Virus record (IMG/VR): IMGVR_UViG_3300030102_004693
Span: 1-33,005 of that record
Length of the DNA: 33,005 nt
Strand: one strand, 5' to 3'
From: a virus
The position numbers and the translations under genes are program-made. Of this stretch, positions 18,004-23,694 are shown in pieces. How positions within the stretch are numbered: position 1 is the first letter of the stretch; each line of letters opens with the position of its first letter. The notes under the pieces were generated by a model. The model saw only the letters and a list, made by a program, of their open reading frames with translations. It had not been told where the DNA came from and made no database searches.

Positions 18004-18318
18004 ATGATATACAGACTAAAAAAAACAAGTAGATCCGAAATGGAAAAAGTGGTTACTGCCGCTCTCGAAGTATTTGGGGTAACCTACCATGACCTCACAA
18101 AGAAAAACCGATCCGAACCATTAGCGTCTGTCAGGGGATTAGTCGGAGCGGTCCTTTATGTGGACATGAAAATTAGTAGAAATGATGTCGCGGCCTTCCT
18201 ACACCGCAACCCCACGTTAGTGACTATTTATGGTCAAAACCACTTGGATCGGATGATTACCGATCGGCAATATTGCCAGAGCTACCACGCTCTCAAATCT
18301 AAATTGGAGGAATTATGA
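18004..18318 (+). CDS. DnaA domain IV-like DNA-binding protein, 104 aa
   Basis: The sequence resembles the C-terminal DNA-binding domain of DnaA. A helix with VVTAALEVFGVTYHDLTKK precedes an N-R-S-x-P-L-A-S-V-R-G-L-V-G-A-V segment like the DnaA R-x-x-x-x-x-x-A-R-x-x-A block. Then come ISRNDVAAFLHRNPTLVTIY (turn plus recognition helix, where DnaA has D-H-T-T-V) and a terminal helix. It has no ATPase domain, so it is an orphan DNA-binding module. It may bind a phage or host origin, compete with host DnaA, or act as a transcription regulator of the TrpR/DnaA fold. Its stop overlaps the ABC ATPase ATG (ATGA), so the two are co-translated. The similarity is by eye. Confidence 0.58.
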   Translation: MIYRLKKTSRSEMEKVVTAALEVFGVTYHDLTKKNRSEPLASVRGLVGAVLYVDMKISRNDVAAFLHRNPTLVTIYGQNHLDRMITDRQYCQSYHALKSKLEEL

Positions 18319-18935
18319 AAATTAGCATAAACGTAGAGCTAGACGATTTTACATCTAAGGTTGCTCACGCTTTTGATTTAGAGTTCGATGGCACGATCAC
18401 AACTGACATTCCAGATTTTTCACTACCTATGGCCGAGTTTAATATCGGCATGATTGTAGGATCAAGCGGAAGCGGTAAAAGTCAGATTCTAAATAACCAC
18501 TTCAGGGCCAAGAATGATAGTCCGTTTTGGTTTAGGGATAAGGCTATCGTTTCACACTTTGAAGCCCCAGAAGAAGCTATAGAAAAGCTGTTTGCTTGTG
18601 GTCTTGCCTCTGTTCCAACGCTGTGTAAACCTTTTCACGTTCTCAGTAATGGTGAAAAGTATCGTGCTGTTGTAGCCAGAAAGTTACAAAACGGTATGAC
18701 ACTAGATGAGTTCACCTCAGAGGTAAATAGAGAAACGGCAAAGAGCTTGTCGGTAGCTCTCAGTAGATATATCAGAAGTAAAGACATCAGGAATGTGGTT
18801 CTATGTTCTTGCCACAAAGATATAATCGACTGGATAGAACCTGATTGGGTTTTTGATTGTGATAGCGGCGAGCGTTTTATAAATTATGACCCACGTCAGC
18901 AATTAAAGAAGGTAGCAAATATAGAAATATACTGA
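18315..18935 (+). CDS. ABC-type ATPase of the ABC-acetyltransferase family, 206 aa
   Basis: All core ABC nucleotide-binding motifs are readable. Walker A is GSSGSGKS at 49-56, the signature is LSNGEKYR at 110-117, Walker B carboxylates are in LDEFTS at 130-135, and the switch His is in CSCHKD (His167). A D-W-I-E-P-D-W-V-F-D segment follows. There are no membrane segments, so it is a soluble ABC ATPase. LDEFTS-x-x-x-R and SCH-x-D-x-x-x-W-x-x-P-D-W-V are, as far as I recall, hallmarks of the ATPase half of COG2401, an ABC ATPase fused to an acetyltransferase domain. Here that domain is the next gene, one shared base away (TGATG). Likely role: ATP-driven partner of the GNAT enzyme, perhaps on DNA. 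The gene looks more A/T-rich than its neighbours. Confidence 0.75.
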   Translation: MKISINVELDDFTSKVAHAFDLEFDGTITTDIPDFSLPMAEFNIGMIVGSSGSGKSQILNNHFRAKNDSPFWFRDKAIVSHFEAPEEAIEKLFACGLASVPTLCKPFHVLSNGEKYRAVVARKLQNGMTLDEFTSEVNRETAKSLSVALSRYIRSKDIRNVVLCSCHKDIIDWIEPDWVFDCDSGERFINYDPRQQLKKVANIEIY

Positions 18936-19435
18936 TGTTCAAAAGACCAACCATACAATTAGAAGTCTACGAGGTTCCAAAAAAATACAAGGAGAGGTAC
19001 TGGAATCTTTTTAAGAAGCATCATTATCTTGGTGACTCTCTCAATAAAGCGGCAAGATGCTGGGTTGCATATCTTTGGAACAACCCTGTGGCATTTAACT
19101 CTGTGTTAGCCATGCCAAGCGGCTCTCTTAAAAACGCTTGGAGGGAACATAGGCTGGTAGTCCTGTCGGACTACCAAGGTATGGGTATTGGCAACAATAT
19201 ATCAGAATGTGTTGGCAAAATCTTAGTAGATGAGGGAAAAAGATTTTTCTCGAAGACCGCTAATATAAAACTAGGGGAAGCTCGTAGTCAGAGAAAATCA
19301 TGGAAACCAACGAGTAAAAATAAAAAAGCAAGGCCAGACAACATTGGAAGACAAAAGAATTACAACAACATGGTGAAGGAATCTCTTTCAATGAGAGTAT
19401 GCTATTCACATGAATATATAGGAGAAGTAAATTAA
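18935..19435 (+). CDS. GNAT-fold, Mom-like acyltransferase family protein, 166 aa
   Basis: The N-terminus contains KKHHYLGDSLNKAARCWVAY (about 27-46), then a strand (NPVAFNSVLAMPSGS) and the acyl-CoA-binding motif region HRLVVLSDYQGMGIG at 72-86, fitting the GNAT Q/R-x-x-G-x-G/A loop. The C-terminal part has FSKTANIKLGEARSQRKSWK and then a Lys-rich tail. The HHYL-AARCWVA and R-L-V-V-L-x-x-Y-Q-G-x-G-I-G combination is the one seen in phage proteins annotated as the Mom family (Mu Mom modifies adenine in DNA) and in the acetyltransferase half of COG2401. I infer DNA base modification protecting against restriction, but other acyl targets are possible. It is co-transcribed with the ABC ATPase and lies between initiator-like and primase genes. 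Confidence 0.7.
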   Translation: MFKRPTIQLEVYEVPKKYKERYWNLFKKHHYLGDSLNKAARCWVAYLWNNPVAFNSVLAMPSGSLKNAWREHRLVVLSDYQGMGIGNNISECVGKILVDEGKRFFSKTANIKLGEARSQRKSWKPTSKNKKARPDNIGRQKNYNNMVKESLSMRVCYSHEYIGEVN

Positions 19436-23220: not shown

Positions 23221-23694
23221 ATGATAACATTAAACACAGCGGAACAAAGGCTAGCTAAATTCGTTGGGAAGGAACGCGACCTCAATGGTCGCCGGAACGG
23301 GTTCACCAATCGAAAGATAGGTCCTCAGTCAGATGAGCAAACCGACCTGGAGGGAATCGCCGCCGAGATAGCGTTTGCTAGGTACGTCAATGTTTACCCG
23401 GACATAGACATTGATTGCAAAGAATATCCACCTCACGACGTTGTGTTGCACGATGGAACGCTGGTTGATGTCAAGACTACCAAATATCCCAACGGCCGAC
23501 TCATAGTTTCCCCATGGAAAAACGTGGATGCCGTTGATATCTATGTACTGGTTGTTGGAGAGTTTCCCACCTACCGCATCGCAGGAGCCATGGAGAGCTT
23601 CAGACTTATGCGACCCCACCGCATGAAGGACTTGGGTCATGGCAAAGTTTTTGTTGCCACCCAAGATGAACTTAAACCATTATCAGAATTATGA
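23221..23694 (+). CDS. PD-(D/E)XK nuclease-like protein, possible Holliday junction resolvase, 157 aa
   Basis: A helical region with TDLEGIAAEIAFARYVNV (Glu44 and Glu49) is followed by a beta core: HDVVLHDGTLVDVKTTKYPN, where Asp73 and D83-x-K85 fit the PD-(D/E)XK triad, then RLIVSPWKNVDAVDIYVLVVG. An early E in a G-x-x-x-E helix followed by D and D-V-K is the order seen in small phage nucleases, including resolvase-like and endonuclease I-like enzymes. The N-terminus is Arg/Lys-rich. Substrate unknown. It overlaps the next gene's start (ATGA at 23691-23694). Confidence 0.62.
   Translation: MITLNTAEQRLAKFVGKERDLNGRRNGFTNRKIGPQSDEQTDLEGIAAEIAFARYVNVYPDIDIDCKEYPPHDVVLHDGTLVDVKTTKYPNGRLIVSPWKNVDAVDIYVLVVGEFPTYRIAGAMESFRLMRPHRMKDLGHGKVFVATQDELKPLSEL

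Follow-up and report, generated by a model that had tools for sequence, protein, structure and literature searches.

Mu Mom is a GNAT that acts on adenine in DNA, and TmcA and NAT10 combine an ATPase, not of the ABC type, with a GNAT that acetylates cytidine, in tRNA in the case of TmcA. In dnaX (tau/gamma) and in phage tail-chaperone genes, −1 frameshifting yields both a short and a long product. Closer still, GNATs coupled with an ABC ATPase have been predicted to place an acyl modification, as yet uncharacterized, on a DNA base: section 3.4.7 of PMC7824862, a paper on jumbo phages, gives this prediction with phage pT24 as an example and credits it to Iyer 2013. The DNA modification that a sequence-only reading of the present locus had put forward is thus already in print as a prediction, and the ParB or Com gene context described below may also have been described in Iyer 2013.

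A split ABC-GNAT pair and its family

The window analyzed here is a 33,005-nucleotide stretch forming part of a 35.5-kb virus record (IMG/VR record IMGVR_UViG_3300030102_004693), and it carries adjoining genes for an ABC ATPase and a GNAT (Table 1). Motif and ORF checks agreed with the initial description of two ORFs overlapping by TGATG and encoding these proteins with all their motifs. The ABC catalytic motifs and the acyl-CoA loop of the GNAT are both intact, HHYL, AARCWVA, and YQGMGIG are all found in the GNAT, and this protein retains 10/10 of the columns that are invariant in a 43-sequence alignment. A reading of the pair as an ABC transporter was ruled out, with no permease part and a GNAT as the partner instead.

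Table 1 Features of the ABC/GNAT pair, with positions counted along the window.
Feature	Position	Strand	Description
Soluble ABC ATPase gene	18315..18935	+	206 aa, without membrane part; phrog_11143 match at 5e-55
Walker A, GSSGSGKS	18459..18482	+	ABC residues 49-56
ABC signature, LSNGE	18642..18656	+	ABC residues 110-114
Walker B, MTLDE	18696..18710	+	ABC residues 128-132
D-loop, SEVNR			ABC residues 135-139
H-loop, SCHKD	18807..18821	+	ABC residues 165-169
TGATG, ABC stop/GNAT start overlap	18933..18937	+	1-base ORF overlap; GNAT in the −1 frame
GNAT-fold acyltransferase gene	18935..19435	+	166 aa; phrog_11143 match at 1e-34
HHYL motif of the GNAT	19019..19030	+	Y31 invariant in 43 sequences
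YQGMGIG, acyl-CoA pyrophosphate loop	19172..19192	+	Q81, G82, G84, G86 invariant in 43 sequences

The profile matched by both proteins, phrog_11143, is a fused phage family of 357 positions and unknown function. The window ABC aligns to positions 5-192 of this model and the GNAT to positions 199-351, and since these are consecutive parts of one fused model, in order, the pairing goes beyond chance. A survey of how often the two genes are adjacent, suggested by the sequence-only reading, pointed the same way: the ABC domain lies beside or fused to the GNAT in every viral locus that was found through its GNAT and is not truncated at the end of a contig, the exceptions elsewhere being two cellular loci with a GNAT and no detected ABC (L181, L191) and phage nickie (L091), with an ABC and no detected GNAT. 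The two domains therefore travel together, being fused, linked through an apparent −1 frameshift or, in the clade of the window, coupled stop to start. After deduplication, in-frame fusions accounted for 129 loci and a GNAT in the −1 frame for 75; a further 6 were arranged as in the window, 3 had the GNAT in the +1 frame, and 1 had an in-frame stop. On a phylogenetic tree built by a quick method, with many open forks, the window type formed one fully supported clade, and ~9 changes between the fused and −1 states were required.

Cultured phages with relatives include Lactococcus P335, Leptospira LE3/LE4, Gordonia Jace, and Streptococcus MismyG, and plasmids yielded a single, weak relative. The ABC-GNAT of Tenacibaculum phage pT24, the published example, is homologous to the window pair, with 39% identity in the GNAT and 36% in the ABC. 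The pT24 locus contains an in-frame TGA within the GNAT domain (L076, 4721-4723) and is annotated as two genes; this codon may be read as a nonsense change, an error, or recoding. Three further loci encode a second short GNAT-like ORF of about 90-105 aa, 1.3 kb downstream of the pair (L042:7369-7638, L043:7335-7652, and L055:7356-7619; matches 3e-18 to 3e-21). The window pair is real and was acquired horizontally; it belongs to a known predicted family, of which its split form is a variant: it has the two domains in common with the family of Iyer, Aravind and colleagues (phrog_11143; example pT24), whereas the window clade makes two separate proteins, coupled stop to start, with no ParB or other partner adjacent.

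The TGATG/TAATG junction is kept across the window clade (L002, L004-L006, L064), and the window ABC and GNAT are likely coupled by termination-reinitiation at this overlap. No slippery heptamer is visible at the window junction and the ATG of the GNAT sits on the ABC stop, so that the window pair itself does not rely on a programmed −1 frameshift.

The pair had also been proposed, from its A/T-rich composition, to have been acquired as a unit. The G+C counts quoted for this (22/60 and 33/60) were exact on recounting, and the module as a whole has 39.5% G+C (window, 45.5%), but composition alone is a weak sign of acquisition because ~5% of windows of the module's length have a G+C content as low. 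The stronger indication is DNA similarity, which ends at the module borders. The window shares 85% to 73% DNA similarity with L002-L006 and L064, confined to positions 18315-19425 with none in the flanks, and the stretch that is 85% identical to DNA of a 138-kb phage extends no further than the module genes. Because similarity is confined to the module, because the flanks of the locus in the 138-kb phage contig (L003) have ~41% G+C, near the module's value and unlike the window's, and because L002, L004, L005, and L006 have flanking DNA in common, the sequence comparison suggests that the 35-kb phage probably acquired the gene pair, delimited almost precisely at the gene borders, from a large-phage lineage. 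We infer the direction of transfer, from large phages to the 35-kb phage.

Apparent frameshifting at the domain junction of relatives

The most surprising result is the likely frameshifting in relatives of the pair. Of the 75 distinct loci whose GNAT is read in the −1 frame, 69 have no GNAT-frame ATG before the domain. A canonical slippery heptamer was present in 68/75 of these loci compared to 35/129 fused loci, although long runs are scored in these figures even when out of phase. The slip signals at the −1 junctions consist of nine-T (T9) runs, A-runs, and GTTTTTC followed by a hairpin. In one clade of large phages, GGTTTTTTTTT was found at the junction in 24/24 loci checked, with exactly nine T each time, and an in-frame relative (L032) reads GFFFKRP at the T9 spot, where a −1 shift would give GFFFVRP. 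In the clade of Lactococcus P335, Streptococcus phages, and relatives, the junction is mostly GTTTTTC or a TTTTTT run, then a hairpin whose arms vary among phages yet pair (CCCCAC/GTGGGG, GCCCAC/GTGGGC, CGCCACG/CGTGGCG). When arms were swapped between phages of this clade, 0/20,000 permutations equalled the pairing of the true arms; the folding z-scores averaged −2.94. A stimulatory hairpin was also sought downstream of the junction in the T9 clade and not found (mean z 0.18). Further −1 loci have A-runs as the slip site, and a Bathyarchaeota MAG (G001, L310-L316) carries seven ABC/GNAT copies, 7/7 with a −1 arrangement and A AAA AA-type slip sites. ParB-like ORFs lie upstream of the seven pairs of this MAG, which could represent many integrated viruses. 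Apparent −1 frameshift junctions were located in L078, L085, L086, L011-L060, and L198-L297.

On the basis of the −1 frame lacking an ATG, the slippery runs at the junctions, and the matching hairpin arms, relatives probably make both ABC and ABC-GNAT through programmed −1 frameshifting or slippage. Homopolymer runs are prone to error, and the three +1 cases together with the in-frame stop of pT24 would fit a collection of sequencing errors or decayed genes, yet this explanation is very improbable given the 75:3 bias towards −1, the constancy of T9 across its clade, the pairing of hairpin arms that permutation does not reproduce, the uniformly −1 archaeal copies with their A-run slip sites, and the integrity of both domains. 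Sequencing error as the source of the −1 frame was rejected on the first four of these. How the frames would be joined in the T9 clade is more evenly contested. Transcriptional rather than ribosomal slippage is a serious candidate there, at somewhat under even odds, because the hairpin is absent and the nine-T run is invariant with no stable downstream structure; against it, ribosomes also slip on such runs, and hairpins or A AAA AAG-type sites occur at the junctions of other clades.

The slippery run, often with a hairpin, is common to the ABC-GNAT relatives, dnaX tau/gamma, and tail chaperones, whereas here it falls at the junction of enzyme domains, and in the relatives rather than the window pair. 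No published account of frameshifting in the ABC-GNAT family was found in the literature searched, and the pattern appears to be new. If true, programmed frameshifting at an enzyme domain junction would place a non-structural phage gene among those controlled in this way. At present, gene callers split or misname ABC-GNAT genes, and public annotations include ABC iron siderophore transporter, DNA polymerase, and hypothetical protein.

Relation to Mom and TmcA

The window GNAT had been described as Mom-like, and this did not hold: the Mom Pfam model (PF25680), which Mu Mom itself matches at 2.4e-75, gave no match for the window GNAT, an hhalign comparison of its family profile with Mom reached a probability of 9%, and profile comparison detected no Mom homology outside the HHY region. 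The two proteins (PF25680; 8bv8 for Mom) share the GNAT fold and carry HY at similar positions; of the conserved Mom motifs HYS, ELNR, and SFAD..G..YQA.NF, the window GNAT has this HY alone. Mom in turn has neither the QGxGxG loop nor an ABC partner. Membership in the Mom family is therefore rejected on the Pfam, profile, and motif results. Structure prediction, proposed earlier for comparison with Mom, gave a GNAT fold for the window protein (AlphaFold2, mean pLDDT 86.6) whose nearest solved structures are generic GNATs, including the ribosomal-protein acetyltransferase RimI. The sequence-only reading had also invoked COG2401, and no paper naming COG2401 was found in the literature searched.

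Ranked by E-value, the first hit of the fused model was TmcA, but the TM-score of this match is low (0.27-0.28). The resemblance, an ATPase plus a GNAT acting on a nucleobase amine, is thus one of analogy only, with a non-ABC ATPase and an RNA substrate in TmcA and NAT10. By analogy, the window GNAT may work like Mom or TmcA. A Mom homologue and an ABC-GNAT occur together in Aeromonas phage PX29 (L079, hit H109), which suggests non-redundant roles for the two.

Gene neighbours, proposed function, and alternatives

The gene neighbourhoods of relatives point towards DNA modification. A Com zinc ribbon (PF10122, 9e-21) lies directly upstream of the ABC-GNAT in Pseudomonas phage Komp_PAO1_1, as it does upstream of mom in Mu, where Com is described as an activator of mom translation (PMC6483171). 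In four sets of loci, a ParB-like ORF sits immediately upstream of the module in 100/103, 45/69, 9/17, and 9/72 cases, or 163/261 loci when pooled, these sets being query-driven, with near-copies, and not independent samples. ParB-like genes of this kind stand at the head of DNA methyltransferases, and the ORF aligns with the N-terminal region of a type II methyltransferase model (3e-26). In some phages ParB-like genes also precede Mom, and in phage Appa one overlaps the Mom gene; the ParB-like DpdB serves the insertion of dPreQ0 into DNA (PMC12839542). Formyltransferase genes follow the ABC-GNAT in a single clade, made up of Komp_PAO1_1, Porphyromonas phages, and L065, and a terminase is close to the module in several phages, the module often lying just upstream of it with ParB. 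Two Planctomycetes loci (L156, L161) show a chromosomal row of ParB, ABC-GNAT, and a terminase-like gene, and are therefore probably prophages or gene transfer agents.

From these observations we infer, with a probability of about 0.6, that the two window genes encode a single enzyme divided between two polypeptides, a split ABC-GNAT that would acylate phage DNA bases against restriction. ABC subunits would dimerize around ATP and engage DNA as a motor or clamp, assisted in many relatives by a ParB-like loader; the attached GNAT would draw an acyl group from acyl-CoA via the YQGMGIG loop and transfer it to the exocyclic amine of a base in phage DNA, which host restriction enzymes would then no longer cut. 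In the window phage, the GNAT would associate with the ABC noncovalently. Mom and TmcA offer the nearest working analogies for such a reaction. The broader scheme, a new chemistry of DNA acylation by a ParB-like loader and an ABC-GNAT, with the ratio of ABC to ABC-GNAT set by programmed −1 frameshifting, at slip signals that differ among bacteriophages and one archaeal genome, or in the window lineage by stop-start coupling, stands at about even odds. If true, it would represent a widespread phage means of acylating DNA bases.

Base acylation is favoured by the domain pairing, by Com and ParB-like genes upstream and the ParB-like gene overlapping Mom in Appa, by the formyltransferases of one clade and the nearby terminases, and by the exchange of the cassette between unrelated phages, the published family prediction, and the DpdB parallel. 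The earlier proposal of a DNA-modification pair is accordingly supported in part, through the family prediction and the Com/ParB neighbours of relatives, without its Mom component. Base acylation is weakened by the generic fold matches of the GNAT, since GNATs acylate proteins and small molecules too, by the confinement of detected Mom homology to the HHY region, by the low TM-score of the TmcA match, and by the window clade itself, in which no ParB, Com, or formyltransferase gene adjoins the pair. Models for ParB and N6/N4 methylases found no match in the window genes or the 35.5-kb record, the whole record being covered with one methylase family, which agrees with the earlier statement that no methyltransferase is visible in the window.

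Acylation of a host protein, such as RNA polymerase or a ribosome-associated target, would instead make the module a takeover factor, with the ABC resembling a soluble ABC-F protein. Phage GNATs such as Rac are described in PMC7824862 as modifying RNA polymerase, the best PDB sequence match of the window ABC is EttA (0.0013), and RimI is among the GNAT fold matches. ABC-F proteins, however, carry two cassettes and the window ABC one, and the Com and ParB neighbours of relatives better suit DNA, so that we regard a host-protein target as rather unlikely. A role in replication or packaging, with the ABC as a DNA clamp near the terminase and the GNAT modifying a phage protein or polyamine rather than DNA, would fit the position of the module upstream of terminase genes with ParB, the primase-helicase gene that adjoins the window pair, and the weak match of the GNAT profile to diamine acetyltransferases. 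It is nonetheless quite improbable, as the movement of the cassette between unrelated phages suits an accessory trait, and the Com association also argues against it.

Two other genes were recorded around these modules. The window encodes a DUF5843/phrog_18407 protein of unknown function (23221-23694) close to the replication genes. In Gordonia phage Jace, an aspartate decarboxylase family gene (L083:3992-4417; PF02261, 2e-33) directly follows the ABC-GNAT and might supply an amine substrate.
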